Made by a program: the position numbers and the translations under genes. 64,000 bases of DNA from Axinella damicornis (Eukaryota; Porifera; Demospongiae; Axinellida; Axinellidae): assembly GCA_963931865.1 (NCBI GenBank), contig OZ007507.1, forward strand, positions 1,560,913 to 1,624,912, written 5' to 3'. Positions 7,901-62,300 of the stretch are shown piece after piece (within the stretch, counting starts at the first letter, position 1; every line of letters begins with the position of its first letter). Below the pieces are notes generated by a model. The model did not search any database. It worked only from the letters and a program-made list of their open reading frames with translations, and had not been told where the DNA came from.

Positions 7901-9289
7901 CCTAGAATCTGCCATATATGTCACGTCCAGCTGCAGGTCAAATGCAGTGCACATACTTATATAGCCCATCTGGTTTTGTCTGGCAAAGTGGGTGGATGCT
8001 CAACAGACGATGTAGTTCACATCTATGCTGGCAAAACAGGTTCCTGATTCTCCTAAACATATAGTTGTACTAGACCTTTGTTTTAGCAAATTACGTTTTA
8101 AGTCTGTCTGGGGTTGCTTAATGTGCTGTTTTGGTGCACGTGGTGTGTGTTATTAGCTATGTGCCTTTTAGGGCAAAAGGCACGTAATAACGTACCTGCC
8201 AGCAGCAAATTCAGTACGTGTAGCTACTCTTATCTGGTACTCCTACCGGTTGGTAGCTCTATATTGCTACACAATCTACACAGTGGAACCTCTACCATCA
8301 GGACAATATAAATTCAGGAGCACTCCTGTTCTGTAGGGTGACTGCATGATGTGCTATTTCGCCAAAAATGAAACAGCAACACCACACCAAGGATAGCTAG
8401 CTACACAGTGAAGATCAAGTCTTGCTAGCCTTTGCTACATGTAGCTACACTAGCTCAGCAGCCACTTGTTGTGGAGGGCGTCCTGCATCCATATATAGCC
8501 CCATTCCAAGGCCCTCTACACTTCCAGTTCCTAATCACTGATTTTCCAGTATGCAAGAATTCTGTAAGCAATCAAAAACTGGTAGTGTAGAAAGCCTATA
8601 GCTGGGAACAATTAGGCTATGATATGCTCACATGTAGTTATAGCAGACTAGCTAATGTGCTAGGTAGCTATCTTAGGTTAAATATGAAGCTCGGATTTGC
8701 ACCATTGCATATGATCAGCATAAATGGAGCATTCCAGTGATGTCCACATTTCCTGTCGGTTGAATTTAACCCGAAACGATAATACATGGATTCATAGGCT
8801 TTCATCAAGACAAAAATGTGATCAACATTAAGTCATTTTTAATGCATCACTTCATGCTGATCACATTGACACAATAGCTACCAACTTTGTATCTCATTCA
8901 TCTCATTCAAATGCATGGATACAACATGTCTTTCTTTAGACAATACGCAGAGTAAGAATTATGCCAGCTAGCTAGCCGGCTAAGTAGCTAGTAACTATGT
9001 TAGTGGTAGCTATCTTGAGCTAGGAAGGAGATGTACGGGGAAGCTGAGATTTGTGTCATTGTGATCAGCATGAATGGAGCATTCCAATAATGTCCGTTTT
9101 GCTGGCAATTGAATTTTGACCCAATGGGTCCCATAACATTGCACTAGGCATGGGTATGTGAATGAGATATGAAACGGGGAATTGTGCCATTGTGGTCAGC
9201 ATAGAAAGAGCTTTCAAATGGTGCCCTAAAAAATGATTTTTACCCCGCGCGCCCCATGTTTCCGCTAGAGCTAGAGCGAGTCGCCGGTC
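7901..9289. other. intergenic; dispersed repeat around GATCAGCAT
   Basis: No exon supported. The 5' flank of copy B lies at 7901-8080. Three related blocks containing a GATCAGCATRAATGGAGC-like core occur near 8713, 9062 and, more diverged, 9197, suggesting an old repeat. The rest is AT-rich with many AGCTAGCT words. Confidence 0.5.
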
Positions 9290-9331
9290 TAGCCTCGTTC
9301 CCAGGCCGTTTTGGGCCTGGGAACGAGGCTA
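9290..9331. mobile_element. 42-bp palindromic mini-element with direct repeats
   Basis: Near-perfect hairpin beginning TAGCCTCGTTCCCAGGCC. It is flanked on both sides by GTCGCCGGTC (9280-9289 and 9332-9341), which reads as a target-site duplication of 9-10 bases. Confidence 0.85.
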
Positions 9332-9508
9332 GTCGCCGGTCGTGCGCGGATACCGGATGGATATGGATCGCGGATCCGCGGAGGAGGAAATTATGACGCC
9401 ATCGTGTTCCAGCCCCACCCATGCAAGACGTCTAATCAATGATCTACGAAGTTGTTACAGTCGGACGATGAAGGCCTGATTAACGATAGTCATTGAAATT
9501 CTATACCG

Positions 9509-11411: not shown

Positions 11412-11442
<31 letters not shown>

Positions 11443-14400
11443 ACAACACACACACTTAGATTCGCTCAACAGGAATTCCCCCTTACAAACACGGGATGAC
11501 ACAAGGTCCCAAGTAACACACCCACACACCTCTACCCCCTCACCCATTGGTCGTCCCGTCCCCGCCCCAAGACTGAGAACTAGCACAGTGAATTCCTGGT
11601 CTCCTTCCAGCTCAGAACACAGAGATAAAAGTACTGCTAACGACATTCCACTCATCAGAGGTTCCTCAGTCCCCGAAGATTGGATTGCGCCGTCCCCACC
11701 TGTGTCAGTGCCTGACCCAAGGGAACAAAGAACTTCTTTAGACTCTAAAGCTAATGCAGTAACAGTTGAAGCTACCAGTAAACATTCACCTTCAAAACAG
11801 ACTCCGAGCAAACCGAAGCCGTCCCGTCCTCCCCCACCCAGTCCTGTTGCCCTACAGAGAATCAAGGAGAACAGAGCGAGGAGCCACAGTCACGGCTCCT
11901 GTCCTCCTCCTAGCGAGCAGAACCACGACTATGAGTTTGATACCACGGAAGGCGAGGATATGCATGAGACCCAACTTCAGTCACGCCCACAGCCAAGGAG
12001 ATCAGTGCACAGCCGAGATTCTTTAACCTCCCAGTCTTCTCTAACGTCTCACTCTTCTCTTAACAGCTCTTCTTCTGTCGTCAGTGCGATGATCCCGACT
12101 AGGACTTCGGCTGCCAGTTCACTGGACAGTGCTGTGGGAACTGATTCCTGTCCACCGTCAGATGATAATGTGTATGAGCCGATGGACCTCAGCAATCCCA
12201 TCCCCCCACCTCGCCGTAAGAGGAGCAAGAAGGGCCATCACTCACCAAAGCTTGCTGGATCTAAAGATGTAGCACCAGAGTTACCTCCAAGAGGAACTAA
12301 GAGTGACCCTTTGGCTAGAAGGAGAATCACCCCACCACCAACCATCCCACAGAAGAGCCAGCTAGCAAGGACTATTGGTTTAAAAGCAAGCGCAGCCAGG
12401 GAGGCCAAGTTGCAACCGATTGTGGGGACCTACCCTCTGGCACAATCACAAGAAGCTGTTGATGCGTCTGAAGATGCGTATGTCATACCTGGTGACCCAG
12501 AGCCTGACATTGGAGGGGTGGATGAATATGTGGACATGAAGCCCGTGAGTGCATGGCAGAAGGAGAAGGCAAGTACCGGGACACCTCATGCAACAGCTGA
12601 AGAATTAGCACAAGGTATGCCATCCCATCTCTCTCTCTCTCTCTCTCTCTCTGGACACTTGGATCAACAGTCTCAACAATGGTTGAGTGGTTTTGATTTG
12701 AGAAAGTGCTTGATAAGTGCCTGTTTACTTTCCTGTGCCAAGCGTATTCACCTCATGTTGTTTATTACTCTTAAGTGGTTTTCTACTCTGCTGAATTGTG
12801 TCTACTGTCAAGTCATGATCATGCATGTGATCATGCTGGGACATAGCCTCGTTCCCAGGCCCGAGGCTAGCTGGGACATGCATGTGATCATGCTGGGACA
12901 AGCAGGTGATCATGCTGGGACAAGCAGGTGATCATGCTGGGACAAGCAGGTGATCATGCTGGGACATGCATGTGATCGTGCTGGGACACGCATGTGATCA
13001 TGCTGGGACAAGCAGGTGGGATAATGGTGACTGAGTAGCTGGGTTCATAGTCCCGTTCCCAGACCCCGGGGTCTGGGAATGAGACTACTAGGTTTAGTGA
13101 AGATCAACGTGCTGGTGACACCGTGCTGGTGACACCGTACAGCCTTGCCTTGCTAATGGTTGAGTAGTTTTGATTTGAATAAGTGACTGTTTATTTCTCT
13201 GTGCCAAAAACACTTTCATGGTTGTTTCTTCACTGGCTGGTTTAGTAGATTCATGGCCAGGCTGCGCACTCCAATCACCCGCACTCCAATCACCTGTAAT
13301 AGGAAGTCAGGTGGACTCAGTGCCATGGTTGACTTGTACTACAACTGCGGCTTCCGGTGTGAATTTGATACCTCTGTGTGTGATCATTGGATACACTGGA
13401 GCATCAGTGTGTGTACCATGCAAGGGCTTTGTTGGGTACAACATACTGCATACCATAGTAAATACATGCACTCCACCCATCTCCCCTCATCCCTCCCTCC
13501 ACCCCTCCCCCTCCCTCCCTCCACATCCCTCCCCCTTCCTCCCTCCAACTCCCCCTACCTCCCACATCCCTCCCCTTCCTCCTTCCAACCCTCCCCTTAC
13601 CTCCCACATCCCTCACTCCCTCCAACCCTCCCACATCCCTCCCCCTCCCTCCCTCCACCCCTCCCCCTCCCTCCCACATCCCTCCCCCTCCCTCCCTACC
13701 TCCACCCCTCCCTCCAACATCCCTCCACTGCCACCCTTCACATATTTTCCCCCTCCCTCTCACTCTTCACACACCTGCAGATCAACCTGAAGATTCTTAT
13801 GTTCAAATGCACCCAGCCGGTAGCCTCCCACTCACGAAGGAGGAGGAGGAGGAGGAGGAGGAAGACCAGCCGGAACCAGTGTACATCCAGATGGACCCTG
13901 ACGAGTACATCCAACCTCCGAGCCTCTACTATGCTTCTAAAGACCTACTACACAAAAGACCTGATCTCAAGTCAGAGGTGAGGAATACATTCCCAGGCCG
14001 TGTGGTCTGGAAATGCGACTAGGATACTAATAGCTGATTGCATGCTTATAGGAAGTAGTTACTACATGCAATTTCTGTTAGAGCTTATGTGATATGTGGC
14101 TATCATTACTGTGGGGTCATGTGACTTTCATGTGACCCCTTCCTGCTGTCCCCACTTGGTTGCCAGGGGATTGCATCTGCAGTACCGTAAGCGCTTTACA
14201 TTTGCGCCACTCTAATTCTGCATCAAAATTGATAATTCCAAAACGGTAATTTCTAATTTTGCATCAAGCTATAAAATGTACTTTGTGTCCATTCTATTGT
14301 TGCGTTGCTCCGCGAAGTGTGGCTTGCATTGGGCGCAATTGCGCGTGTAAAAGTGCAAACAGAAGCTGCAGAAAGGCGGCGATGTCATCTGGCATGGTGG

Positions 14401-15989
14401 ATCCTTCGAATGTTCGCCGTCGCTACTTGTAAAATCAATGGGCTCTACCGCTACTACCTTTCAAGGTTTCCACGATCCTGCTCGGAGTGGCTCCGCACTC
14501 GAAGTCCAACGAATCGGCTGAGGTCCTTCTGTATGTGAAAAGAAGACTGTACATGCAGGTATCTTAGAGCTCGCACACACACACTTTCTAATCTTGCGTC
14601 GTCTGGACAAATAATTATCGGGGCAAGCATTAGCGAGCCCTACATAGACGAGTTTGCTGCGAATTTTCTCTCTCTATATATATATATCTGTCGTACGTCG
14701 TTCCGTAAATCACTTCCTGCTCCTATTTTGCGTGTTCTTGCGTCATGTGTTAACGATACACAACAAAGTTGCATGCATGGCGTGCGAATACTCTACCTGT
14801 TCGATGGACGATGGCGACAACACAGACAGAGACCACTGATGGACCTACCTATTCATTGGCTAGAACGATGGGTGAACCATGAACAGTCTAACCAGGCTGT
14901 GTACCTTCTCGCCTGCGGTGACAGCAAACTGGACGAAGTCCACACTTACCTATTCACGAACCTCAGACCTGTACATGTCCTGCAGAACACATGGTGTGCT
15001 AGACCAGCTAGTGTGCAGCATGCATATAGGCCCCTGTGTTGTGCACAGGTGTGTCATGTTATGATTTCTGTCACCTCATGCAACATTGGACGGGCTGCTT
15101 TGGCAGGGGACATTAAAATTTGACTGACTGTGTATGCAAATACTCAATCTGCGTTGCATGCATTCGCCTAGCTATTTTGGTGACGCAAATTTAGAGTGCT
15201 TACGGTAGTCAACAGTGCTTCATAGCAGGATGGGAGGTAAGATTTTTCCTCCCCTCTCTCGTTATGCAACAGAATTTACTACCCCAAAGGTCTCCACCCC
15301 AAGAAAACAATGAAATTTGATCTGGTAACATTCCATGTGTAGGCACCTCCTCAGCAGAGGTACAATTAGCCTCGTACCGCGATTTGAAGGCCTGGGTACG
15401 AGGCTAAGGTACAATGTTCTCTCATCTAGAGCAGACAGCTGGCGTAGGGTATCTGCTGATTTCAACCTAGTTTACATAAGGAGACCTTTGATGAGAAACC
15501 ATAATCTCATGGGCCATTATCCTGATGGGAAATACCTCTTGTCCCCTGGGAGATGCTTTGGCTTCATGTACACAGTTACATCACTCCAGGCAAAGTTCAT
15601 GTACACAGACACAGGATGTGCGACATTCACACATGTACATGTACACAGTGTTCTTACTCACACTTGTTCACACAATCACACCACCTACCTAGCTGTGCAT
15701 ATAGCTAACTTTTAGCTTACTGCCAGATTCTTTCTTGGAAGGGTGTATATCCGCTGACCTTTCCAAGACTTCTTGCTTCAACCCTCCTACTGCCCATGGT
15801 GATCCTGATGACCCCACTGCCCATGGTGACCACTGTCCATGGTGACCCTGATGACCCCACTGCCCATGGTGACCCTCGGCCCAAGCTCAGGCTTAATTGC
15901 AGGTTACTTACCATGACTTGCTAACCTTGAACGAGCTTCTCTGGGCTGCGAACTATCCTGTGCTAATGAAGATGAAACTGCCTGCCTGA
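9509..15989 (+). CDS. adaptor/docking-like protein with YxxM and proline-rich motifs
   Basis: Five exons, 9509-9920, 10643-10777, 11616-12614, 13781-13977 and 15903-15989, join with consistent phases to about 609 aa. A polyadenylation signal AATAAA lies at 16061. The protein is disordered and rich in Ser/Pro/basic residues. It has four YxxM motifs (YEPM, YVDM, YVQM, YIQM), the consensus for PI3-kinase p85 SH2 domains, plus other DEY/NHDY sites. Proline clusters (PPPSP, PPPRRKRSKK, ELPPRG) could bind SH3 domains. An acidic E-run precedes VYIQMDPDEYIQP. No PH, PTB or SH2 domain is visible. A signalling scaffold of the GAB/IRS/GAREM kind is inferred from motifs only. The last exon (HDLLTLNELLWAANYP) is the least certain; the sequence before it is intron with minisatellites. 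Confidence 0.72.
10877..11303. mobile_element. 427-bp inverted-repeat element with 8-bp direct repeats
   Basis: Ends are TAGGCCTGAGATAATTATGC and its inverse, flanked by GTTGAGAT on both sides (10869-10876 and 11304-11311). The interior is AT-rich with repeated GAATAATAGCAAG-like words and no open frame. An 8-bp duplication fits hAT-type non-autonomous elements. It lies in an intron of the adaptor gene. Confidence 0.8.
11402..11446. repeat. poly-C then CA tract
   Basis: About 27 C followed by (CA)n in an intron of the adaptor gene. Length may be unreliable in the assembly. Confidence 0.9.
12823..13018. repeat. 22-bp tandem repeat around TGATCATGCTGGGACA
   Basis: Six to seven partly degenerate copies in an intron of the adaptor gene. 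One copy has been split by a palindromic mini-element at 12844-12869. Confidence 0.85.
12844..12869. mobile_element. 26-bp palindromic mini-element
   Basis: TAGCCTCGTTCCCAGG...CCGAGGCTA, flanked by GCTGGGACA at 12835-12843 and 12870-12878. It is the shortest member of the family seen here. Because the target is itself a tandem repeat, the flanking match is less decisive than elsewhere. Confidence 0.7.
13048..13087. mobile_element. 40-bp palindromic mini-element
   Basis: TAGTCCCGTTCCCAGACC and its inverse ending GAGACTA. Flanks CTGGGTTCA and CTAGGTTTA match at 7 of 9 bases, as expected for an aged target duplication. Confidence 0.7.
13480..13765 (+). repeat. C/T-rich tract before an acceptor
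   Basis: Imperfect CCCTCCCT/CCACATCCCT repeats fill the 3' part of the intron before the exon at 13781, acting as an extreme polypyrimidine tract. Confidence 0.85.
14185..15205. mobile_element. 1.0-kb TA-flanked inverted-repeat element
   Basis: Left end CCGTAAGCGCTTTACATTTG and the inverse of the right end (CCGTAAGCACTCTAAATTTG) match over about 25 bp, with TA on both sides, as in Tc1/mariner-type non-autonomous elements. No transposase frame is seen. An inner block, 14785-15035, has a diverged relative at 52640-52892 on the other strand. It lies in the last intron of the adaptor gene. Confidence 0.72.
15367..15406. mobile_element. 40-bp palindromic mini-element, exact 9-bp duplication
   Basis: TAGCCTCGTACC...GGGTACGAGGCTA flanked exactly by AGGTACAAT (15358-15366 and 15407-15415). 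It lies in the last intron of the adaptor gene. Confidence 0.9.
15785..15885. repeat. short tandem repeat around CCACTGCCCATGGTGA
   Basis: Four imperfect copies of a roughly 20-30 bp unit containing CCCATGGTGA, just upstream of the predicted last exon of the adaptor gene. Confidence 0.75.
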
Positions 15990-16060
15990 TGGTTTTGCCT
16001 ATTCCGAGCACATTTTCCTTAGGTCATGTAGATGTGTACCAGTCCTTGGTGTTGCATAGC

Positions 16061-16066
16061 AATAAA
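16061..16066 (+). other. polyadenylation signal AATAAA
   Basis: Canonical hexamer 72 bp after the proposed stop at 15987-15989, on the same strand. It supports the adaptor gene ending here. Confidence 0.55.
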
Positions 16067-16241
16067 GCCATGGCAACTGGCTATGTGATTAGACAGTCTG
16101 TGTCTTCCTGTACCAGATGCCATTAGAAATGGGACAAAACATGTCATTACGTCAACACAAGTTCAAAGGTCATTTCATTTCTTTACATTGGAACCAGTGT
16201 GTGTGTGTGTGTGTGTGTAGCTCCTGGTCAGTTTGGGAATT

Positions 16242-16858: not shown

Positions 16859-16930
16859 ATCATCATGCACTCTTGCGTGAGACTGTCATCATGCACTCTT
16901 GCGTGAGACTGTCATCATGCACTCTTACAT
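16859..16930. repeat. 26-bp tandem repeat, about 2.7 copies
   Basis: Units containing CATCATGCACTCTTGCGTG, head to tail. Confidence 0.85.
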
Positions 16931-22012: not shown

Positions 22013-23498
22013 AGACCACAGAGCCCCCAAGGATCACAATCTACTGCTTTAGCTTCAAGTCCATTGTACTCTTCCATTGTATGAAGAACTATAGCAAAGT
22101 TTATATAACCATAATATATTTATAGGCACATGTTCTTTACACATGGTGACCGAAATGTATTTGTATTAATGTATGCTGCATATAGTGTATACCTTACATA
22201 GCTAGCTAGGTGGACTAACAATAAAATAATCTATTTCTTGATCTAGTACAAGATAATTATATTGTTGTGTAATTGTACACATTAGCTGTAAAGGTCAGAG
22301 GCGATGGATTTTGCAAGTGTAGAGAATGCATTTGAAGTAGTCTCGGCCCCAGACCCAAACCCACCGAGACTACATTTGAAGTAGCTGTTAATGTAAATCA
22401 CTGAAGAATCAGTAGCTGCATGGTAGACAGAGAGGGCTGGGAAAGATGGCAGAAACTGCTGTAGGATATAGCCTTCTTCCCAGGCCTATAGTCCCCATTT
22501 TGTTCTTGCACTGAATGCAAACCAAAGAACAGAAAACGGAAGAACAGAAAATGTCAGCAACCTTAAACGTCAGGGAACACTTTAATTTGTTGTACGTTGA
22601 GGCGCTCTGTAAACGTAGCTCTTCATTCATGCATGGCTTCAGTGAAGACCTTGTTGGTAGTGACAAGCCTTTATTAGGGTAGATGTATGGACACAAAATT
22701 TTGTCTCAGTTACGTAGCTAATACCGGGTACCATCTTTCATTCGTAAGATACCAATTTTTGTTTCCTAGGTAGCTATATGGCTAATTACATTTTGACTAC
22801 ATGTACCATGGTAGCTAGACATTTTTTGTCTAGTGTGTTCCAAAACCTAGCTATACAAAGGAAACTGCATGGAACACTACAATAAAGAGTATACACAAGG
22901 ACCAAGTTTTCAAATTATGTAGCCAAGAGCTATAGATCAAAATTTCTCCCCAGAAGTATTTTTGACCATACAACCACCTTGATCTAGGATCCAACATTTC
23001 CAGTGATAGTGACAGTAGCAATTGAGGTTGGAAGTAGGGGACCACATGACAGTGCACGTAGTCGTTGCATTTACGTTGTTGACTTGCTTGTAACTAGTGA
23101 CTCTTGGGTTCAGAGGTGTCTAACGTAAGCTATGATGCTGCTCTCCCTCATGCAACCTCCTCACCATATTCTTGGTCCTTGCACCTCCAGAATTCCACGA
23201 AATGGTCATCCTCTACTATGCTTACAGCTTTTTGGTAAGTGAAAGATTGCAAGTAGAATCTAATATAAACTGCAACCTTCTAAATACATTTCCGAATATA
23301 CAGTACAGTGTATGCGGAGTTTTAATATAACATTCATCATGAGAGCAAGAGTTTGCTAATAGCTAAAGCACAGAAGAAACAAGAATTGAATTACAAGTGT
23401 GCAAACGTTAATAATTAAAATCACCAGTACAAGTCAGCTATATAAATCAACTTATGGTCAGTATAATCATATTATGCATAATTGTAGTCTCAGAAATC
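22013..23498. other. intergenic
   Basis: No exon seen. Contains a 35-bp mini-element at 22338-22372. The rest is AT-rich without recognisable features. Confidence 0.6.
22338..22372. mobile_element. 35-bp mini-element, exact 9-bp duplication
   Basis: TAGTCTCGGCCCCAGACC...CCGAGACTA flanked exactly by CATTTGAAG (22329-22337 and 22373-22381). The inner sequence matches one half of the larger element at 61824-61935. Confidence 0.88.
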
Positions 23499-24988: not shown

Positions 24989-25019
<31 letters not shown>

Positions 25020-29513: not shown

Positions 29514-29575
<62 letters not shown>

Positions 29576-38912: not shown

Positions 38913-40655
38913 ATGGCTTCCATACTGCGAAGACCGTTGGACCTGTTCATTGTTTCTGTCTTCTTTGTCTTCCTCTTCATAGCACTGACCATTGGTGAGA
39001 CACGAGGAGTTTTTCCATGCTTCTATCACATGCATGCAGACTTTCGTGTTAGTTTACAGAGACCGGCCTGCCCCTTAGGGTCTTCCGCAGGAGCTTTATC
39101 CTTTCTGCAGACAGTATCAGAGCACTATAGCTACTCGCTATTTCTATGAACCTCAATTTCTGAGACCATGGGTATTTCATGGAACGGAACACTTGGACAA
39201 CATTATGTAATTTCAACTCGCTTCCATTTTGTGAATAGCTAGCCATACCCTTTCCGATCATGGATGGATTATTGCTATGCTGATACAGTTTGAGTTTAGA
39301 CTGTGAGCAATACTGTTGGGTTACCGTATAGCATGTTACTTCATGGCTCACCACCAAGTCGTGAACTATGAAATTTGAATTTTATGATCGTCCTGTACCA
39401 CCTCCCTTTTCCACCCATCATGCATTGTGAAGACTGGACTCAGTCCATATATGGCTCCGTCCTTGCACTTGAGGATCTGGAGTTTGGGTGGTGGCCTCCG
39501 CCTATCGTCCTGCACTACTACGCCTGGTGGTGTGAGACGGTTGACCCGCTGGTGGGACACAACCCAATGTGGTAAGGCTGCTCAATTAACCCCTAGCCTT
39601 AGCTGCCTTACCCCACTTCTTACAGCATTAATTATTGTGGGGTGATCAGGTCCAGAAATGATTCAATATATAGCCTTGTTCCCAGCCTTCTCACCCCAGT
39701 GTTTGTCGCTTGCAGTACTAACCCCGTGTTAGTACTGCAAGCTACAAATGCTGGGACGAGAACGAGGCTAGTTTCAATAACCAACGAATCTAGTGAGGAG
39801 CTAACCTAGAGTGGCTGCATGCGACATGCTATCCCAACGTCCTCCCTCCACTATATTCCGTTTCTACATAATATGCATTATGCACAGCAGACGGTGGTTA
39901 GCCTCGTTCCCAGTCCTAATGGCCTGGGAACGAGGCTAGACAGTTGTAGGTTGAAAGGTTGGAACATACTACCTTATGCCAACTGTCGCTGTATAGCGCA
40001 GTCACCATGCCAAATAAATTGAGTAGCTAGAGTACAAGTGGACAGTTCCTTTTGTTCAGCTGCCGTTCAGCCCCATGTTCCTTTGCCTTGCACATGCTGA
40101 CATAAACGCATGCAGCCACTCTATATAGATACCAGCAAAAACGAATATGTATGATGTAACGTACAGCCTAACGGTGCATTTTAACCTCTCAGGAGCTGCA
40201 TTTAGGTTGATCGGCCATGGTATTATCCTCACTGCAGGTATGAAACAATGGCATCGTTCAGTCCATTCATCTATGCTCCATTCTACATGGTAGCCATTTA
40301 TGCCTTTGTCTTTGAAAAGGAGTGGATCCGGGCCCCAGGTACGTCCCTAGCCTTGTTCCCAGGCTGTAGAAATGGAGAAACAGCCTGGGAACGAGGCACC
40401 TTACTGCATTTGATCAAGTCTCCTTCTCCTCCAAATGCAGCCTTGATGTGGGGGTGGGGTCTCTTACTGTCCATGGTGGTGATTTTACGAGAGGAGTTCT
40501 TCGGAAAGTATGCCACCAAAGACCCGTTCCTCTTCAGCCTGGCCTATGGGGGATACATGCTGATGCCCCTGCTCGTTATGCTAAGAGTAGCAAGGACACC
40601 TGTGTTTGGCACCAGCTCCACCAGGAAAACTGAAACCAAAACTAAGAGGGATTGA
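38913..40655 (+). CDS. TMEM97: TMEM97 (sigma-2 receptor family, EXPERA domain)
   Basis: Exons 38913-38994, 39433-39571, 40238-40338 and 40441-40655 join in phase to about 178 aa, matching the family's about 176. It is an ER/lysosome membrane protein of sterol handling in vertebrates, with four helices. Seen: helix 1 (FIVSVFFVFLFIALTI) ending in the conserved Asp of the ligand site (TIDWTQ), ETVDPLVGHNPMW, a second helix into FYMVAIYAFVFEKEWIRAP, a third (LLLSMVVILREEF) and a fourth (YGGYMLMPLLVMLRV), then a basic tail ending TKTKRD that may be an ER-retention-like lysine tail. The family Glu at about human position 73 aligns with Ser here by eye. Intron 3 is only 102 bp and contains a palindromic mini-element. 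Confidence 0.92.
39669..39774. mobile_element. TAGCCTTG/CGAGGCTA palindromic element
   Basis: Left arm TATAGCCTTGTTCCCAGCC and right arm ACGAGAACGAGGCTAG flank an inner inverted pair (TTGCAGTACTAAC / GTTAGTACTGCAAG). It lies in TMEM97 intron 2. Confidence 0.7.
39899..39938. mobile_element. 40-bp palindromic mini-element
   Basis: TAGCCTCGTTCCCAGTCC...GGGAACGAGGCTA in TMEM97 intron 2. Flanks match at 7 of 9 bases, consistent with a worn target duplication. Confidence 0.75.
40347..40397. mobile_element. mini-element filling half of a 102-bp intron
   Basis: CTAGCCTTGTTCCCAGGC ... GCCTGGGAACGAGGC lies entirely in TMEM97 intron 3 (40339-40440), starting within 10 bases of the donor. Related palindromes follow the gene at 40727-40763 and 40833-40877. 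Confidence 0.78.
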
Positions 40656-40899
40656 TCTGTCAGGATTCGTATCAGTCTCTAGCTGGTACTTTTGAAGAAG
40701 CTATTGACAAGATGGATTTTAGACATAGCCTCGTTCCCAGGCCACTCCCATGTGGCCTGGGAATTAATGGTGGGAGGAGCTTGAGTGATGGCATATACAT
40801 ATGTACATGCATATGCATGGCTGGAACAGTATGCCTCATTCCCAGGCCACTCCCATGTGGCCTGGGAATGAGGCTAGTTTAAAGTTAATGGTGGGAGGA

Positions 40900-42515: not shown

Positions 42516-42902
42516 TAGCCTCGTACCCAGTCCCACGCTCAGCTTTCCGTCGCTTGCAGTACGGTAAAGCAGGGAGGGCCTGGTACGTTTCCTCACATGA
42601 GCATGACGTAATCAAAAATTGGCAGAACGAAGATGCTACGTTTTGCGTGTTATTCAGCCATCTACACGTTCAACGCTCGGTGAGTATGACAGTCGCCCCC
42701 GCTAGCTAGATACGTGTGGTATGTTACCTGGTACCTTGGCTCTTCTTGCTGTTCTGAGACACACTACACCCACGTTAAACTTCCGGTCTTTCTACCCCTT
42801 TCTACCCTTGACGTCACTCACGTGAGGAAATGTACCAGGCCCTCCCCGCTTTACCGTACTGCAAGTGACGGAAAGCTGGGCGTGGGACTGGGAACGAGGC
42901 TA
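42516..42902. mobile_element. 387-bp member of the TAGCCTCG family, exact 9-bp duplication
   Basis: About 86-bp inverted ends starting TAGCCTCGTACCCAGTCCC, with exact flanking AGTGCTGGG (42507-42515 and 42903-42911). The interior of about 210 bp has no convincing open frame. It is the best-preserved long member and may show what the tiny palindromes derive from. Confidence 0.92.
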
Positions 42903-48073: not shown

Positions 48074-51000
48074 TCATGCTCTACAGCCCGATCGAGAAAC
48101 CAAGCTTATCCTACAAAAGGAAAACATGCCATGGATGGGGAGATGGTAAACATACTTGTCCAGTTTCTGCAGTTCCTGTCTGATCTCAGGGTTGCCCGGA
48201 GACAGCCGTCCAGCCTTGATGAAGTAACTTCGAGACTTCTCGAACTCACTGAGCTGCATGTATGCCTGCAACAGAAGTCGCATTACAAGGATGACAGGTG
48301 TACACTCACACGAAAAAACGCATTCGTCTTCAATACCCGCCATGAAGTTTACAATATCCCATCCATGATGGCATCGACGGATGAAAACCCTCTCACCATC
48401 TATGTTGCCATACACACCAGCCTGCTAGTTGAGGTAGGAAAACCCCAATGAGAAACTAATCATGAAATCTTGTACTGCACAGTAAAGACACCAAGTGCCT
48501 ACGTTCCTTACCTGGCCAAGTCTGAAGTGTGCCTTGATGTTCTCAGGATCCAGTTCGAGTGTCTTCCTACAGTACGTGATAACTGGTTTGGGCTTTTTCT
48601 GACGCAGGTCGCAGAGACACAAGTTGAGGTACAGCTTCACTAGCACCTGCTTCCATTGGCGCTCCTCTTCCTCGTCCTTCAGCCGAGTGTTTTCCAGGAG
48701 GCGGATGGCCTTGGTTGTGGTGGAGAGGAGGAAGGGGAGAGGACTGATATAAGGGTAAGGCCACCTGAAGCAGAAAAGGAGGGTATGGTCTACTATGTGA
48801 CCACATGATCGCAGCATTGTTTGGTACATAATAGGAACTGTTTTGCTTGTAAAGACAGGTGAGGGAGCCAACTTGAAAGAACTTTACACAACCTTACAAT
48901 TCACAATGGGATCTGAAAAGAAACGGAACTTCATGATTTCCGATGAAAGTCTTTGTTTTCCACTTGAAAAGATTTTATGATCACAAAGAGCTAGGTGGAG
49001 CCAATGTTATGAATAACACATGTACAAAGGCAGGTGTTCTTTGTTGCTTAAGTTCACTATGAAGGTCCTATAGCCTCTAAATTGCCCGTTAGAAAGGTAA
49101 CTTTTATGATGCATGACAGGCAGATGGAGAGACAGACCCAACTGCTTAACCCCACTCACACCTAAATGTGTGTAGCTACAGAGCATAATAGGGTGGGGAT
49201 ACAGCAAGCAAATGAAGAGTGGACTTAGTCTGAGAACCAAACCCTTTGCATGGGGAGGAGGAAGGGTCTGGGCATATGTGCGTACTTTCGAGTTGTCGTG
49301 ACAGAATGCAATTATGCGTGGGTAATTAGTGATCACTTGTGATATCACATATGATCACTATTGGCCTGCTCGTTCCCCTCAATGTTTGTCAAACCCTTGC
49401 GAGTAACACGGCATAGCACAGAGATTTGCAGCAATCACTGCATGGTGAAACTCAATGCCTGGAGAAAAATCATGCATGACGTCATTTGCAATCAATGATT
49501 CTGATTCGTTAGTCCTGGGGACAACTCGAATGTAAGCGTGTGGCCAGACCCTTTCTCGCCCCCCGTGCAAATGGTCTGGTTCCGAGACTAGTGTGGACTC
49601 ACTCTGATGTATTTGCCGGCAGCCTTTCCAAACTGTCTCTGTTGAAACATGTCATTTCCTGCCTGTGGAATATAAAGGACATCAAAGGACAAAACAACCA
49701 GCTCCTTTGCACTGCTACACGCTAGCCTCATTCCTGCCTAGTAAGAATGCATAATTATACGCACCTCCCTCTCTGCGTTGGCAACAGCAATAAGCTGCTT
49801 CAGTGTCGCCTGCTCTCTCTCCTCTCGGGAGAAGGAAGCAAACTCATCTGCTGCCCGATGATCCACAAAACTGATCAGCTCAATCTCAAACATGACTGTG
49901 GGTGAGAGAGAGAAAGTGACAAGAAGGCCGAGAGACTTGAAGGAAAAGACTTATAAAGTAAATATACAACCAAGACCCCATGAAAATTTTGCAAAAGTAA
50001 AAAAGTCACTATGTCTAGGCAAAGTCAGTATTGACTACACAGTTGTGTACCCATATCAAAAAGCTGGTATTCCAGCACATTCCTTTGCATTGTGTGGACA
50101 TAATGTCTGCACACTCTGAGGTACAGTGTATGCCCTGCTATAGCGCTATTCGAGGGCTCATAGTCTGATGTCACACTCACTTTGGGCGCTGGGTGGGATG
50201 CGTGGAGGGCAACCCATTTCTCCAAATGCATACTCCGGTTGGATAAGAAACCTTGCGAGCTCTGCTCTCCGCATCGAGGTCAGACCCACCTCCCAACCTA
50301 ATATCACCTCCCCTGAGGAATGTGTACAGGCTTAGCAAATTAGTGTACACGGCAGTTTAAAATGAACCATGGTACAGATGCTAGTTGGACATAACAGACA
50401 GTCAACCACAGTAAATCACAGGATACTACAGTATACTACTGCAGTTCGTATTTGAAGCTACACACCATAACACATTAGCTAACCTTTTCCCAGCCGGAAC
50501 TGTTGCTGTCGGTTACGCAATCGGCTGGAGTCGTATGGCTCCTCTGCATACTCCAGATACCCATTGTAGTGCACCCTCACCATTGCCCCCTCAGGCACAA
50601 CGGAACCCGTCCCTGGTCGAAGGATCTTCTTCAACACGCCACCATCTCCAGTTAGGTCGTCCATGCCAACCGCCATGCGTTCAAAGGGAGCCTACAGAGG
50701 GCATGCAGTTACGTCATAAAGTGATACGGGCAGCAATTTCAGTGGTAAAAACATTGGAGTTACATGTAGTATGGAAAAACAACGGAGTTTGTCTGTTACT
50801 TGCAATCTGTACAGGGATCAGCCTGATCTTAGCAGGTATGGTAACTATACTTAGCAGCAAAGATTAGCATATATACTAGGAAGAAGCTATGCAGCTGCCC
50901 AAATTTCTGCAATCACAATAGAAGGCACCATCCTATTGCCACTCGTACAATGGAATATGGTGTAGATTTCCAGCTGTGAAATCGTCTGCATAATGTACAC

Positions 51001-51233: not shown

Positions 51234-52288
51234 TTATTGAAACTCAAGACGCGGGCCAGGAACAACTGGCAAGGCTGACAGAGGTCTAAGAATAACGCTA
51301 ACCACTGCATCCTCCGTGTCAGACCCAGAGTCGCCTCCGACATCAGTGCAGGCATAGTTTAGCTGCTCATGCACTTCTTCCCGGTCAAATGTCTCCTCCG
51401 CCTCCTCAGCACCAGGTGAGGGCAGAGAGGGGTCGATCTCAAACATGATCCCCTCCCCCCTTGACAGCTGCTGCATATCAATGCCATCCTTGATGGACAC
51501 AGAGTGGGCAGCGTGCTGTGAGGTATGTGTGCATATGCAGGTAGTGTTGGTGTGTTGGAGGCAATAACGAACACATTCATAAATCCAGGAAATCCATATT
51601 TACTTTCATCATGCACACTAACAAACATAGCCATGCGGAGTATTGTGTAGTCTCGGTACCAGACTATTCGTGCATGGAGGAATAGTCTGGTACCAAGAAT
51701 AGAGTACTGTGCATGTCATAGCCTCATTCCCAGGCGGCCTGGAACGAGGCTATGCATGTCACCATGTACTGTACAGTTGTGACTGCCATGCTTCATTTGG
51801 CATGGAGAGGGACACAGGACACATTGTGGACGAAGTCTGGAACATTGCAAAAGACCTACATCTATAATTACAGAGCACATTATAACAGTCGGCCATTGGC
51901 CATATTCCGGGGGAAGCGCTGATTCCGGGGGAAGCGCTGAATGAACACATGAGCACTTCACAGACATACATGCACATACGTACCTACATACACAATGATA
52001 CATTCCCTCAGATTACCACCCCACACCGAAAGATCATAAGCCTAGCTTCCCGCCCAGCAAATTTGTTAGTGTCAGATCATGTCCGACCAATACTGGTGTT
52101 GGTCTGACATTATGTCAGACCAGCCTTTGAAAATTATATTGTGCACTGAATTATGCATGTTGACAAAGAGTGCTCTATTTAGAGTACTTTTGTGTTTCAG
52201 TATTAACCTGCAAGCCATGAGCTGCAGTGAATCATACCTGCCACTCATCATCAAGTGGTCCAAACGGTTCAATAGTTTCCATCGCCAT
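51234..52288 (-). CDS. acidic unknown protein (or alternative FKBP6 N-terminus)
   Basis: Exons 52288-52238 (MAMETIEPFGPLDDEWQ) and 51515-51234 join in phase 0 to about 110 aa: HAAHSVSIKDGIDMQQLSRG, then the acidic GAEEAEETFDREEVHEQLNY and GGDSGSDTEDA, and a tail ending PGPRLEFQ. If a donor after DTEDAV were used, the frame could continue to an AG just before the FKBP6 start (51156), adding this as an acidic N-terminus to FKBP6. The weak acceptor there makes that uncertain. No domain recognised. Confidence 0.5.
51648..51702. mobile_element. 55-bp mini-element
   Basis: TAGTCTCGGTACCAGACTATT ends are inverted. Flanks AGTATTGTG and AGTACTGTG match at 8 of 9. Confidence 0.8.
51719..51752. mobile_element. 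34-bp mini-element, exact 9-bp duplication
   Basis: TAGCCTCATTCCCAGG...GGAACGAGGCTA flanked exactly by TGCATGTCA (51710-51718 and 51753-51761). It is inserted only 16 bp from the preceding element, and the two duplications overlap by two bases. Confidence 0.9.
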
Positions 52289-54084: not shown

Positions 54085-54341
54085 ATGGCTGAGTGCAGCA
54101 CACTGGATGGGTGAGTATTCATTGTCCTGAATTAAGTATTAGAGCTATGTGGCAGCAGTCTTGGTAAGAGGATTCATGAGCAGCCATGCAAACCCATACT
54201 CATTTTTGAAGATCTACTTGCAGGCTATAAATACGTTTGATACCCTATTAAGGGTGTAGAGCATGCATGCAGCACTTGCGCAGGCGCATTGCGAAAAGCG
54301 ACGTACGTACCACGTACGTACCTACGCATCCAGCACTGTGT

Positions 54342-54365
54342 CTCGGCACTTCGGTGCCGAGACAA
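54342..54365. repeat. 24-bp palindrome GTCTCGGCACTTCGG, copy 2
   Basis: Near-perfect hairpin related to the one at 42483-42506. It sits immediately left of the large hairpin at 54366-54601. Confidence 0.75.
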
Positions 54366-54601
54366 AAACATTAAAAATGTATGGAGATGTAGGGATACCA
54401 GAACCTCAAAAAGGATGGAGACAAGGTAGGGATGATAGCATAAAACAGTTCAGTATACAACCCAGCCCTACATATCTTTTCACATCGTAACGTTATGTAG
54501 GGGGGTTGTATACTAAACTGTTTTATGCTATCATCCCTACCTTGTCTCCATCCTTTTTGAAGTTCTGGTATCCCTACATCTCCATACATTTGTAATGTTG
54601 T
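54366..54601. mobile_element. 236-bp hairpin element with about 100-bp arms
   Basis: Left arm (AAAATGTATGGAGATGTAGG onward) and right arm are inverted copies with few mismatches around a loop of about 40 bp. It lies in the presumed first intron of RanBP1. No open frame beyond the two mirrored short ones. Confidence 0.9.
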
Positions 54602-54798
54602 TTACACTTGTTAGGAAATACTGTTGGTAGAATACGAAGTATATAACTTACCTCTCATAAGTTGTGATCCTACCTGTGACGCCCTTTGACCAATATTCCA
54701 TTTTCCTGGTCTTGGGAGACCAATTTCTGCTGAAAATTTTGTTCAGAGACCGAAATTTTGTAGCTAAAATTCTGCCGGCACTTTCTTGTTGCTTTCAG

Positions 54799-56466: not shown

Positions 56467-56689
56467 AAATGCTCTCTCTTTCTGTGTATTTGGTAGGTAG
56501 AATTGTACTATGCATGCATGTCCTATCGTTGCTCCGTAATAGTCCGTGATTGCTTGTGTTCTTCCGTACACACGTGCGAAACGTGGGTGTGGACTTCCAA
56601 GTTTATGGGAGTAAGTATGGTGGTATGCCGGTAGCTACACTGCCATCCTGTCCTAGCTACGGGGAGAGAGGTCAAGTTGAAAAAGTGGG

Positions 56690-58988
56690 ATGGCTGGCCG
56701 TCCTGGTGCGTTCCATCGGAAGCACGGACAGAATATTCGGCTGTACGAGGAGGAGACGGTGGCACACAGGGTCGACAGTTACAACAAGGCAGTCGTCTTT
56801 TCGGAGCAGCCGATCCCTACAGGTGCAACGTTCCAGGTCCAGCTACTGGACAAGGGAGGAGGGTGGGCAGGATCAATTGTGAGTGCACTGCATTGCTGAT
56901 CGCAGTTCTTACAAGTGTCTCAATTAGAGCACACCATGGAAAAATGGGTGTGTGCGCGTATAAAGTGGAAGGTTTGGTAGCATCCTCGAGCTCTGGCTAG
57001 ATACATGTTTAGACTTCTAATCACTTGGTTGAACTACTGCATGTTGGGAAAGTGGGTCTATATACACTAGAATTGTGAACTTACTCAAGGGGCGGTGGTA
57101 GTCTCGGAACCAGACCCTTGGTCCTGGCACATGCCTACCTTTGAGTTGTCCTGACGGAATGCAATTATGTGTGGGTAATTAGCGATCAGCTGTGATACCA
57201 CCCGAAAGATCACAGTTGAACTGCTCATTGCTCCCTTCAAACACTTGCAGGTACACGGCATAGTCCAGAGATTTGCCGTGTCTAGTCGCTGGCACCACTG
57301 AAAGCCTGGAGGAAAATCATTTCCATGAAATTCAATGCTTCTGATTCGTCAGGTCAACATTCCGTCCTGGGGACAACTCGAGTGTAAGCGCGTACCCATA
57401 GCATTCCTCCTCCCCGTGCGAAGGGTCTGGTTCTGACACTAGGGCAGTGGCTATTTTCCAGAATGGAACGCATCATGTTGGTACCCATATTACGTTTAGT
57501 GGTAGGTTACGAACGAGACTTACGACCAGGAGCCATACGCAACCTTCAGCCCACGTGATTTTATAGAGCTGTATCTAGTGACATACAGTTTGGGGCTAGG
57601 TACGTCTACAGCATGCAGATACTTTTTCTATCTTGACTTCGAACAACAGTGCCACAAATCTTTTCGACTTGTCAACGTAGTGGTCAGTCTCATACTCTCG
57701 CAATGGGCAAATCAAATGACTTTCTTGGACACGTTTCCCCCAGCTGCTGCTGCTACCTTGTGGTACTAGCATACCGTAGTCGCGCGTTATTAGGCGCATA
57801 TTCGCTGTTAGGCGCAGGTTCAACTCTCGTCCCAGGTACTTGCTGTTAAGCGCTGCAGTCTTCTTTCAGAAACTCTGCCGTTTTCGATCATACGGAGTGG
57901 AAAACAGCTGATTCCAATTGAAGCGCACTTCCTATTCGAGGAATGTCATTATTAAAACATTCGTTATTAGGCGCATCTCGCTTATAGGCGCATATTTCCT
58001 TCCTGTGGAGTTATAGGCGCATGCGCCTAATAACGCGCGACTACGGTATATATGAGATGATCGGACCGTATCTGTGGTTTTCAAATGACGTCAAAATTAG
58101 GTTCAGAAATTGGACATGTCTGACTAAATGAGACATGTTCACAACCATGTCTTAGCTGCATCTGAGTCTGACATTTCTCTTTCCTATACCCAATCCAGAG
58201 ATTTGGGTTCTCCGTATCAAGTCCGGACGACCACCCAGTCCCCAGCGGTGCGTTGGATCTGTACAGAAGTTCAGAGTACTGGATACTCTCAGCAAGCACA
58301 GTGCATCACAGTGGACAAGAAAGACGGGTGGATTTCAACCTGGAGTCCCTCAGAGTCGGACAGTCAGTGGGCTGTTTGGTAAACAAGGAGGGAGAACTTC
58401 ATTACTTTATAGATGGCAAGGACCAAGGAGTGGGGTGGACTGGTGTCCCCACGGACAGACCCATGTGGGGCTTTGCCGACATCTATGGACTTGCTAGGAA
58501 AATAAAATCAGAGTTTTTATGTGGTAAGTGAGAATACCAACTCTACGAAGGTACACTGTAGGAGAGAGGTCACACAGGGGTAGCCTAGCAGGGAGGGGCT
58601 GTATAGCAGGATGTGCTATGGAAGTACCCCTAGCCTCGTTCCCATGCAGGCTGTTCCCACCTCTTTGATCACTTGCAGTATGCAAATACGGAGGGGGATT
58701 AAGTCCTGGGAGGTCTGATCCCACTCACCCCATGCACCTTTCCTGTTCACACAGAACCTCTCCACCCCACCCTCTGTTCACACAGAACCTCCCCACCCCA
58801 CCCTCTGTTCACACAGAACCTGTTTTGTTTTAGCAAAATTGATGATGCTCCATAATTCGTGGAGTGTGGATGACAAAGCCGCTAGCATGCTAGCATTGTA
58901 ACGAGGCTAGTAACAGTGCGTGGTCTCTCTCGTTTCAGATGAAGTAATGAGTTGTAGTGAAGATTCAGACTTGGACATCACGGGATGA
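56690..58988 (+). CDS. neuralized homology repeat (NHR) protein
   Basis: Exons 56690-56878, 58199-58523 and 58939-58988 join in phase to about 187 aa. Nearly the whole protein is one NHR domain: FHRKHGQNIRLYEEETVAHR, NKAVVFSEQPIPTGATFQVQL, GGWAGSIRFGFS, then SLRVGQSVGCLVNKEGELHY, FIDGKDQGVGWTGVP and MWGFADIYGLARKI. A short acidic tail follows (CSEDSDLDITG). NHR domains bind substrates of neuralized-type E3 ligases, such as Notch ligands. No RING finger or SOCS box is seen, so it would need a partner. Position 224 bp downstream of RanBP1 on the same strand allows a shared or readthrough transcript. Confidence 0.85.
57099..57441. mobile_element. 343-bp TAGTCTCGG-family element
   Basis: Ends TAGTCTCGGAACCAGACCC / GGGTCTGGTTCTGACACTA. 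Flanks GGGCGGTGG (57090-57098) and GGGCAGTGG (57442-57450) match at 8 of 9. It is internally homologous to the elements at 37250 and 49226. It lies in NHR gene intron 1. Confidence 0.88.
57774..58046. mobile_element. 273-bp TA-flanked inverted-repeat element
   Basis: Ends CCGTAGTCGCGCGTTATTAG and exact inverse, with TA on both sides. The interior carries repeated TTAGGCGCAT/TATAGGCGCAT words in both orientations. Non-autonomous Tc1/mariner-like by ends and duplication; no open frame. It is in NHR gene intron 1. Confidence 0.85.
58737..58820. repeat. 31-bp tandem repeat, about 2.5 copies
   Basis: Units with GTTCACACAGAACCTC plus CACCCCACCCTCT in NHR gene intron 2. Confidence 0.85.
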
Positions 58989-59359
58989 CACCGACCCTCC
59001 CTCGCCTAGGATCAATATTATATTGGTGCATCAGAGGATGTCCATAATGTCTTCTTATTGTCAAGTATATGCATTTGTACCAAGTTCTTTTTAATGCACA
59101 CACTCACTACTATAGTATATGTACCTGCATTATCAAAATACCTGGTCCACACACATCAATTTGCTGAAAAAGGGGAATATAAGGTGGAGAGATTTAGTAT
59201 AAAAAAAAGGAAAGATGGATGGTTTATATGTACCTGTGAAACATTCAAGATAAACCTGTACTGTTATGACTGTATATGGCAGCTAGGGGTTCCGCTGCTC
59301 CTGGGTTGGGTTGTACATAGATATTGTAACCAAGTGGATGGTAGGCCACTAAGGAAGCT

Positions 59360-62300
59360 TCACTGTTTCTTGTGTTTTACAACCTCTAAGTCAACAATCT
59401 CCTTCTTGTGACCAGTCGCCTCCAGCCATTCCTACAGTACACAATGAAGAGAATATGACCTCATTGAATACCGGCAGAGTTTGTGTCAGTGGAGGTGTAG
59501 TTGCTTGCACCACTGTGTTCACCTGAAACTTGGACTGCACGCTGGCCTGTAGCTGCAGTGCCTGCTCCTTGCTCAGACTGGCCTCCTTCACCTCCTCGTA
59601 CCACCCTTTGATCCTCCTGTGGGACAGCAAGGCAGGAGAAGTACTAGCCATGGATTGGTGTTGAATGTTGCCATGCATCATATGTCTAGCTGAACTGCTC
59701 ACTCTTTCCTCGTGGAGAGTTTGTCCTGGTACTCTGTGGGGAGGGGACAGGGGTTGTCTTGCAACTCCCCCTCCATCTTGAAGGGTACAACCAGCGGTCT
59801 GAAGTCCTCAGGAGACATCAGGTGCCAGACATCCGACTCATCGCCAACTGAAGACATGAGAACCACGAGTGCACCACATGAGTTTGTCACACACACAATG
59901 TCACGCTGTCCCCACACATACTGTACACCCACAACACACACACACCTGTGCCCAGAGAGACAGGTTGGTTCCAGTAGTTGACGGAGGGCAGGAGACTGCA
60001 CTGGTGGAGGTGTCTGTCCAGGGTGGGGTAGTGCAAGTTGTAGGGGGCAAAGGTGAGGTGGAGGCTTGGCAGGAAGACCACTGGCCGGGTGGCTGTGAGC
60101 AGGTGGAAGGTACACTGAGAGCTTGAGCTATGGAGAGGAGGAAGAGAGGGAAGGGAGAGGGGTAAAGTTAGGGTTGATACGGAGAGGCAACAAATCTCAT
60201 TGAAGCCTGAGATCTGCTTATGCATAGCAGCTTTGTTGTTCCCACACTCTCACATCCCACCTGACATGAAGCCTCCGGCATGCAGTTACCACGGTGATGC
60301 TGTCGCAGTTGTTGATGGTGAGTGCCGTTTCCACTGCTCCCAGCACCACCAAGCAGTGGGAACATCTCTCCACCTGTACCATGCTGCGAGGGGGGACAGC
60401 CAGCACCACACACACACACAGAGAAGGATACAACGGTCAGAATTCAGACAACTGAAATAGACTGCCTGAGCCATGAATCAATCTCAAGATTGAGCATGAC
60501 TCTTGTGGATTGCACTGACACAAGTCATGAGCAATCTTGGGAGTGGTTGCATGCTCTCAGGACTGCTACACAATTGAAATCGTGCAGATCTTATCCTCCA
60601 GCAAGCCTAGCTCACACCCCACATACTCACTGGAGAGGAGCCAGGAGGTAGATGCTGGACCCCCGACAGTACTGGATGTGAACAGAGCTGCCGCTGAGCC
60701 CCTCCTCGCCCTGTGAATACAGTACACCATAACAGATCATTACCCTGTGAATACAACAGATTACTATCTTGTGAACATGGCATAGATTACCAGGGGCAAT
60801 CACTCCAGTATAGGCACGGAGCTAACAGCAGTGACCAGGATTTTGAGAGTGCAGTCACCTGTATGCTGTAGACGTGGGCGTGGCTTACCACATTCCCTTC
60901 CTGAAGTCACAAGATCACCAGCAGTTTAAATTTAGTCACAGCCAGACTTCAGATGGTCACCAATTGTGACATTGGTCATAGCCATGAATGCAGCATTAAC
61001 TAGTAATCTCCAGTAATCTATGAGCAAAGCATATATTTTCGGGAGTGGCCATCCTCTAACTTGTAACAGTAATGCTGTACCTACGAAGGGTAGAGCCAAC
61101 ATGAAACTAGCAGAAACTGGTTTTGCGTTTGAACATCACATGAGCCGGGGCTACCAGTATATCAGTTGGAGCATGCACCTTAGTAGCCTCGAGGCTAGCA
61201 CCTTAGTAGCATGGTGGTAGTCTCCTGTCAGTGGAGCTACACAGAACTATACAGACGGTCAGGTTCAGAGGTTTGGTTCGGAAGTTCAGAGGTTTGGTTC
61301 GGAAGTTCAGAGGTTTGGTTCGGAGGCTGGTTCACAAATTAAATCTGCTGTATACAAGTCACCTTTGCTAGTGTCTGCTTGTTGATCTTATGAAGCAACA
61401 CACACCTGCACCTGCAATGAGAAGAGCACACCTGTACATACATTCACACACACACACACGTCATGCACAGACCACACACACACCAGGTGCTCGGTAATTG
61501 CCGAGCCACCTGGGAATGAGGCTAACACACACACACAGTTTGCTAACTATCTACACAGCATACATACGTATACACTGTACATTATACACCACAGTGAGAG
61601 GAGGACAGGCATTAGTTTGCAGTTCAGTCGCAAATTTGTGAAGGCCAGATATGACTGCAAGTGTACTAGAGAGAAGACAGAAAAGAGTTTGTTGTGTGCG
61701 AGCAACCTAGTGCAGCGCTAGCGGTACTCTGAACAGTACTTTTATGTTGTGTAGTAGGGTGTGATCATGCCATGTCATTGGCCAATCAGCAACTAGAAAC
61801 AGGGAACGAGGCTTACATGTAAGTAGTCTCGGTCCCAGACCCAAACCCACCCCAGCACGGATCGCATCTAGTATCACGCGCGTGATACTAGATGCGATCC
61901 ATGCTGGGGTTGGTTTGGGTCTGGGACCGAGACTAACATGCAAGTGACCCCTGCACTCACCTCTCCGGTGCAGTGACAATGTTCGAGACGATCTTCCCGA
62001 TGGGCTCGCTGCGGTAGGCGTGGCACTTCTTGTCCCTGGGTCCTCTCTTGAGGCTCTGGGGACCAAACGGGTTGAGACAGAGGTGGGCTCGCAGCCACCT
62101 CTCCAGCTGGGGCCGGGGAAACCCTTGCAATAACTGAGGAAGAAGAGAGAGTTCAAATTGGTTGGTACTTGACTACAACACATGGATCACATGGTACCAA
62201 ATCGGTACAAGCTGGTGAGTGAGTCTGGACCTACTTCCCATGATACATACCTTGGAGTACCCATTGCTAGCAGCTTGTTCCTGTGAGGTGGCAAGTTCCA

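Follow-up and report, generated by a model that had tools for sequence, protein, structure and literature searches.

The window analysed here, a stretch of 64,000 nucleotides from the sponge Axinella damicornis (contig OZ007507.1, C3 below, positions 1560913-1624912), contains many short hairpins that begin with TAGYCTCG and end with CGAGRCTA, and the data support these hairpins as DNA transposon insertions flanked by 9-bp target-site duplications (TSDs). The reading that we consider best, with a probability of roughly 0.65, is that they are non-autonomous miniature inverted-repeat transposable elements (MITEs), and that units of only 35 to 44 bp have themselves been transposed. The hairpins carry 9-bp duplications of their own at scores of sites, share their ends across a size series running from 26 bp (in one case 14 bp) to 565 bp, include deletion derivatives, and have an empty counterpart site. 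The two end motifs occur 14 (TAGYCTCG) and 15 (CGAGRCTA) times in the window, and in the eukaryotic genome to which it belongs (226,483,885 bases in 120 contigs) the 17-mer TAGYCTCGTTCCCAGGC has 21,523 exact copies, compared to 0 for the reversed control.

Nine-base duplications and empty sites

The flanks of the hairpins were compared with chance expectation in 312 kb, comprising the window, two unseen 100-kb blocks that were picked blind to content, and 11 smaller loci. Of 54 inverted-repeat pairs in this sequence, which include wrong pairings of neighbouring elements, 15 had flanking 9-mers identical at all positions (9/9) and 23 agreed at 7 or more of 9. With the flanks shuffled 1,000 times, the corresponding means were 0.04 (maximum 1) and 0.16 (maximum 2). 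Duplication lengths other than 9 yielded 0 to 2 exact matches among the same pairs, and shifted frames also yielded 0 to 2. With no requirement for arms, identical 9-mers were found at 22 of 6,820 end pairs, for which 4^-9 predicts 0.03; 17 of the 22 were outside the window, and one insertion was counted twice (loci L029 and L038). The two blind blocks contained 12 perfect pairs. When looser criteria were applied to the window together with the two blocks (264 kb), 29 of 404 pairs qualified, 16 of which were no longer than 60 bp, and the flank-swap control let through 1.2 on average, with a maximum of 6. The two blocks alone, 200 kb, contributed 17 of these elements, from which a rough extrapolation would put the genomic total at around 10^4. 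An earlier, sequence-only reading of the window had proposed that flanking 9-mers be set against shuffled controls, and their identity proved to be far above the shuffles, also in unseen sequence.

Terminal inverted repeats are present and TSD length is fixed at 9 bp with few exceptions, as in MITEs, and this length agrees with the TSD of about 9 bp (7-12) that characterises Mutator-like elements (MULEs). TSDs are 8 bp long in the hAT superfamily and 7-8 bp in the P superfamily, and the hairpins fit neither, with exact duplications that cluster at 9 and not at 8. One 35-bp hairpin on another contig (L177, C1:19099171-19099245) lies between 14-bp direct repeats, GTCAGGTGCAGATC, instead of 9-bp ones.

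An empty site was found within another transposon. A 92-bp palindrome with TAGYCTCG-type ends sits inside a 5.5-kb MULE as GTAATAGGT-palindrome-GTAATAGGT in three copies of that element (L029 on C3, L038 on C5, and L101 on C4), and in the copy on C14 (L102, about 94% identical) the palindrome is absent and GTAATAGGT occurs just once. Joined flanks of 28 elements, drawn from the window and the two blocks, were also compared with the fetched sequence. This search was informative for the 26-bp element at 12844 and for a 113-bp element in L013, both of which lie in tandem arrays, and the other elements gave only self-matches or weak repeats in the fetched sequence. The element at 12844 is inserted in an array of 22-bp tandem units, and since its joined flanks match intact neighbouring units, the array itself provides the empty site.

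In the window, the eleven start positions named by the sequence-only reading all correspond to inverted-repeat hairpins of the claimed sizes (26-423 bp), and the five perfect duplications among them were read again as 9/9. These are at the 387-bp MITE at 42516..42902 (TSD AGTGCTGGG, inverted repeats of 86-94 bp), the 34-bp hairpin at 51719..51752 (TGCATGTCA), the 40-bp hairpin at 15367..15406 (AGGTACAAT), the 35-bp element at 22338..22372 (CATTTGAAG, with weak arms pairing at 9/17), and the 26-bp hairpin at 12844..12869 (GCTGGGACA). The 42-bp hairpin at 9290..9331, a member of a dispersed 42-mer family, also has a 9/9 duplication, TCGCCGGTC, once an extra G at its right end is skipped. Flanks agreeing at 7 or 8 of 9 positions had been claimed for five further elements. 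Agreement at this level was read for the 365-bp element at 49226..49590, the 343-bp element at 57099..57441 and the 112-bp near-perfect palindrome at 61824..61935 (8/9 each), and for the 40-bp hairpin at 13048..13087 (7/9); the 423-bp element at 37250..37672, whose ends match, has flanks agreeing at only 5/9 and hence no usable TSD. Additional elements are a 40-bp hairpin at 39899..39938 (7/9), a 54-bp hairpin at 51648..51701 (8/9, offset by 1 bp), a 73-bp hairpin with the same ends at 4808..4880 (flanks 4/9, no recognisable TSD), and a 151-bp element at 40726..40876 with a 40-bp hairpin inside each end (flanks 5/9, TSD not clear). The smallest is the 14-bp remnant TAGCCTCGAGGCTA at 61184..61197, in which two 8-bp ends are fused at their common CG between copies of GCACCTTAG (9/9). 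Of 25 candidates measuring 12-23 bp in 343 kb, it is the sole one with a perfect duplication, and it looks as if it were the end product of deletion or an excision footprint.

Size series and multi-copy tiny units

Some shorter elements can be traced to the ends of longer ones. An 87-bp element in L013 consists of 41 and 37 bp of a 396-bp element (L026), and the 92-bp palindrome mentioned above consists of 39 and 39 bp of the 356/387-bp kind, at 92-95% identity. Several subfamilies were apparent, with outer ends alike and differing inner arms (...TTCCCAGGCC, ...TACCCAGTCCCACGCCC, ...GGAACCAGACCC, and ...GGTCCCAGACCC). Thus, the idea that all hairpins are deletion derivatives of one family stands in so far as some shorter ones are ends of longer ones and the ends are shared, but it does not account for the several subfamilies, nor for the fact that some of the smallest units are themselves multi-copy. 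Among the longer elements, 3,355 first-look candidates were obtained for the 387-bp family of 42516, and in the set of 40 that were scored, which includes 42516 itself, the 39 others were full-size matches of 91-94% identity over all or nearly all of the length. Judged by this sequence comparison, the element at 42516 is a member of a large homogeneous MITE family, with the copy number expected of one. The palindrome at 61824 is 93.75% identical to a 112-bp element at C2:3040298-3040409 (L023), which has a different TSD there (ATGCATGCA, 9/9).

The tiny units differ widely in copy number. The 40-mer at 15367 has a single genomic match within 3 mismatches and is thus private, and the 42-mer family of 9290 has 104 matches within 3 mismatches, with 27 identical 42-mers among the 100 of them listed, spread over 12 large contigs. 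A 44-mer has 133 genomic matches with up to 2 mismatches over its last 34 positions, and, with 1 mismatch allowed, the 29-bp core of a 35-bp form was found at 191 places, each of them counted on both strands. For the 26-mer of 12844, 31 matches were obtained within 1 mismatch, of which 10 are exact, window copy included; the flanks read for this unit are those of the window copy.

Flanks were read at 62 places of tiny units. They comprise 22 44-mers (two chance encounters and the next 20 listed), 20 42-mers (the first 20 of the 27 identical copies), and 20 35-mers. Of the latter, ten are perfect palindromes and ten have one arm change, GCCTGGG to GCRTGGG; each ten were the first of their type to be listed, except that a palindrome located 111 bp from another was omitted, and other one-mismatch types were passed over. 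Collapsing identical left 9-mers reduced the 62 places to 59 sites (20 of the 44-mer, 19 of the 42-mer, and 10 of each 35-mer set). In this order, 6, 5, 4, and 4 sites (19 in all) had 9/9 duplications, 15, 12, 5, and 6 (38) had at least 7/9, and 18, 12, 9, and 8 (47) had a duplication when the junction was allowed a slop of up to 2 bp. Shuffled means per set were 0-0.22 by the strict count and 0-0.33 with slop, with a maximum of 3 in either case. Wider flanks identified three 42-mer loci (L146, L155, and L159) as copies of one site, leaving 57 independent sites, 37 with a strict duplication (at least 7/9) and 46 with slop. Exact flank repeats at tiny units were almost exclusively of length 9. 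Since the TSDs vary among sites, each copy was inserted separately, or took the place of something that was. For the 44-mer, the right end, with at most 1 mismatch, follows 36 of the 39 exact 26-bp cores, and the left end TAGCCTCG was present within 1 mismatch in 18 of 22 loci read and within 2 in 21, so longer parents are scarce.

Some units are repeated in tandem. In L097 (C1:1337700-1339200), 22 head-to-tail units consist of a 49-bp hairpin and its 9-bp flank AGCCTGGAC, an array in which a transposon has become a small satellite. L118 contains a 66+9 unit twice, and L138 a 44+10 unit twice, the second copy being only begun within the stretch read. Match lists showed similar spacings at places whose sequence was not read, 53 (44+9) at C12:1589850-1589989 and 44 (35+9) at C2:1378304 and C2:1862687. 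In L097, L118, and L138, the last as far as read, the inner spacer is the same as the outer flank, and local duplication between the TSD copies would therefore be the simplest account.

These observations could be explained by the following course of events. A DDE-type transposase, most likely one of the Mutator (MULE) superfamily, would insert MITEs with the ends TAGYCTCG...CGAGRCTA at target sites cut with a 9-bp stagger, and internal deletions would shrink the MITEs, probably via repair or replication slippage at microhomologies of the palindrome. Many tiny deletion products would stay private, and some (the 42-mer, the 44-mer, and perhaps the 35-mers) would remain substrates, which would be possible if the transposase needs no more than the outer 15-18 bp of each arm. 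Such units, essentially two ends back to back, would then have multiplied to about 100-200 relatives each, and the tandem arrays of element plus 9 bp may have been generated by slippage or unequal exchange between the two copies of the 9-mer. For transposition of the 42-mer and 44-mer themselves we consider odds of at least about two to one appropriate; for the 35-mers they are lower.

Several points weigh against transposition of the tiny units as such. Of the 57 independent sites, 20 have no strict duplication and 11 have none even with slop, and at one core (L130) both the left end and a duplication are missing. The 100 full-length matches listed (of 104) account for only 44 of 64 exact 42-mer cores, and the up to 20 remaining cores could be worn copies or pieces of longer elements. 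The asymmetric 35-mer equals the 44-mer less 9 bp between two TGGGA repeats, and could thus arise repeatedly in place. No support was obtained for the supposed present activity of the family. Moreover, synapsis of both ends of a 35-44-bp duplex is sterically awkward. Since so short a duplex can hardly join its two ends, the units could instead multiply in folded form, as hairpin or cruciform, which we regard as quite unlikely; if true, a single folded strand would serve as a full pair of ends for a transposase with a 9-bp stagger, and the elements would be a bridge between DDE transposons and single-strand hairpin elements.

An alternative that we hold to be improbable, though less so than the folded form, is that only longer MITEs move, and that tiny hairpins are made in place when the same parents delete at the same microhomologies, through palindrome slippage or abortive gap repair. 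Besides the TGGGA-bounded deletion and the 42-mer cores outside the full-length matches listed, this is consistent with the unique hairpin at 15367, with the mutually different middles of hairpins of up to 60 bp from the 312-kb survey, with the 14-bp end product at 61184, and with the 87-bp and 92-bp elements as two ends of longer ones. However, the 27 identical 42-mers on 12 large contigs suggest recent copying, although some of them represent one site, and parents of the 44-mer are scarce, with at most 3 of 39 exact cores lacking the right end within 1 mismatch; deletion in place would have to use up nearly all parents and yet spare both ends and the TSD. Much less probable is that dimers travel, in which two tiny copies and a 9-bp spacer (79-97 bp, an ordinary length for a MITE) are excised and reinserted and then slip back to a single copy. 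Tandem dimers and arrays with a period of element plus 9 or 10 do exist, and spacings of 44 and 53 recur in the match lists, but a travelling dimer is expected to bring a foreign spacer, whereas the inner spacer equals the outer flank in all three arrays read. That the hairpins are not transposons at all, but functional palindromes or chance hairpins of repetitive DNA, can practically be dismissed: very high copy number and strong hairpins might be taken to indicate it, but it is refuted by the precise 9-bp duplications and the empty site.

Search for the transposase

Since 9-bp TSDs are typical of MULEs, the superfamily that mobilises the hairpins is likely Mutator, and 51 MULE matches were found in the genome. 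An excerpt of a published study gives the range of MULE TSDs as 7-12 bp (PMC9168764). The family whose ends were determined is the 5.5-kb MULE already mentioned, which encodes a 943-aa transposase open reading frame (ORF) with a PF10551 domain and has the ends GCGTTTTTTTTT (GCGTTTTT...). Its copies are located in L029 (850-6305, within C3:10945500-10953500), in L038 (C5:9764100-9771900), in L032/L033 on C4, and in L036/L037 on C14, and those on C3 and C5 are 99.5% identical over 4.3 kb. All four copies have their own 9-bp duplication of the form CCGNNNCGG (CCGGACCGG, CCGGAGCGG, CCGGGCCGG, and CCGGAACGG), i.e. this MULE has a palindromic target preference.

At L029 830-6349, identical 9-mers, CTGGCGCTC, surround a MULE domain, and this stretch was considered as an autonomous copy. 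It was rejected because the 99.5% identical sister in L038 does not have those ends, and because the MULE has its own ends and duplication in four of four copies; the MULE (850-6305) is instead nested in a TAGCCTCG hairpin, the duplication of which is CTGGCGCTC. Seven MULE stretches of 6-10 kb were read, namely L029 and L038 (one family), L030, L031, L098, L099, and L100, and in the latter five no TAGYCTCG ends within a 9-bp duplication were found around the MULE domain. The full-length relative with the same ends and a transposase that the sequence-only reading called for was thus absent from the seven stretches, a search which is not exhaustive since most of the 51 MULE places were not read, and this absence also counts against our interpretation. 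In L100 (867-5872), an ORF with a MULE domain lies between inverted repeats TAGGGCTGTCACAATAT that are flanked by an 8-bp duplication, ACGGCTAG, as though a MULE were nested in a hAT-like element. A scan for SWIM domains gave 15 places.

It is possible, though rather doubtful, that the enzyme is another DDE transposase with a 9-bp stagger and not a MULE. None of the MULE stretches read carries TAGYCTCG ends, and TAG...CTA termini are unlike the GCG ends of the 5.5-kb MULE. Against this, 9 bp is typical of MULEs and was demonstrated for one MULE of this genome, and MULEs are abundant in it. Merlin is the other superfamily with 8-9-bp duplications, and was the only DDE superfamily searched besides MULE; the Merlin/IS1016 domain (DDE_Tnp_IS1595, PF12762) had 0 matches in the genome, although a divergent or split gene could escape such a search. 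The TAG...CTA termini also differ from the GGG...CCC ends of a plant MULE, as given in an excerpt of its description (PMC9168764), which again would favour a different enzyme.

Comparison with known elements and other repeats

MITEs derived from MULEs resemble these hairpins in their terminal inverted repeats, lack of visible coding capacity, 9-bp duplications, many copies, and deletion derivatives. MITEs usually measure about 50-800 bp, whereas units of 26-44 bp have their own TSDs here, and some of them are multi-copy. The unusual feature is therefore the lower size limit; in the sequence criteria tested, the hairpins are otherwise MITE-like, except for the partner. In bacteria, REP/REPIN-RAYT systems consist of tiny hairpins that are multiplied by a transposase from elsewhere, using single-strand Y1 chemistry that makes no staggered 9-bp duplication, so they are similar to the present elements as tiny multiplied hairpins and differ in the duplication. 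The closest published precedent that we found, as far as the excerpt goes, is the GC42 cluster of yeast mitochondria, a 42-nt palindrome with many copies and short direct repeats AG or ACT that is reported to be mobile (PMC4478555). In comparison, the elements described here are on large, multi-megabase chromosomal contigs, with 9-bp duplications and same-ended relatives of up to 565 bp, and do not fit the description of GC clusters. Sponge mitochondrial DNA also holds repetitive hairpin-forming elements, whose mechanism of transposition is left open in the excerpted part of the report (PMC2800124). By that description, they are similar in their sponge host, small hairpins, and invasive spread, and differ in mitochondrial location. 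No report of nuclear transposons of 26-44 bp was among the matches listed in the open-licence literature, as judged by titles and the starts of abstracts, and four 14-15-mers of the element ends do not occur in that literature, where the sole match among six related strings was an 11-mer, present in 6 papers with unrelated titles.

If units of 35-44 bp do transpose, they would set a very low lower bound for a eukaryotic nuclear transposon, with nearly all bases belonging to the end sites, and would provide a natural test for a DDE synaptic complex with no space between the ends. Thousands of insertions in genomes of this kind would then be overlooked by repeat annotation, which tends to skip units so small. 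As a series of sizes with intact duplications, the elements may also be used as a natural record of how MITEs shrink and of how tandem arrays bounded by TSDs are born as young satellites.

A contig (L041) assigned to the bin of a symbiont from a Poecilosclerida sponge contains a related element, 147 bp long and of the same kind, with an exact 9-bp duplication. The contig has 42% GC and a longest reading frame of 238 codons in 6.2 kb, and since the reading frames are so short at this GC content, we take it for probable sponge host DNA. The 17-mer TAGYCTCGTTCCCAGGC also occurs in cyanobacteria (L047-L093, among 56 GTDB loci with the 17-mer), for example at 11 loci of Microseira wollei and 7 of Hormoscilla, a genus that includes sponge symbionts. 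This cyanobacterial repeat was considered as the same element and was treated as a different one, being a shorter palindrome, CGTTCCCAGGC-N-GCCTGGGAACG, without the outer TAG...CTA pair.

An Rfam scan gave no matches, and a tRNA scan using the bacterial code gave no tRNA. Palindromes of a second family, whose ends are TAGTC(G/A)CGCGTTATTAGGCGCAT, were found at 57777-58043 and at C2:3098029-3098118 (L028), neither copy having a 9-bp duplication at its ends. Further large, near-perfect inverted repeats, apparently of other palindromic element families, are located at 31453-32027, 30662-31326, 54364-54602, and 38081-38168, with arms of 170, 106, 100, and 44 nt, respectively. Two ORFs have recognisable domains, one on the reverse strand at 23499-24626 with an alpha-kinase domain (PF02816) and one on the forward strand at 45457-46443 with a PLD-like domain (PF13091). 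The alpha-kinase ORF has 104 relatives, and those with names include slime moulds, which are the best matches, and the sponges Dysidea avara and Amphimedon queenslandica.

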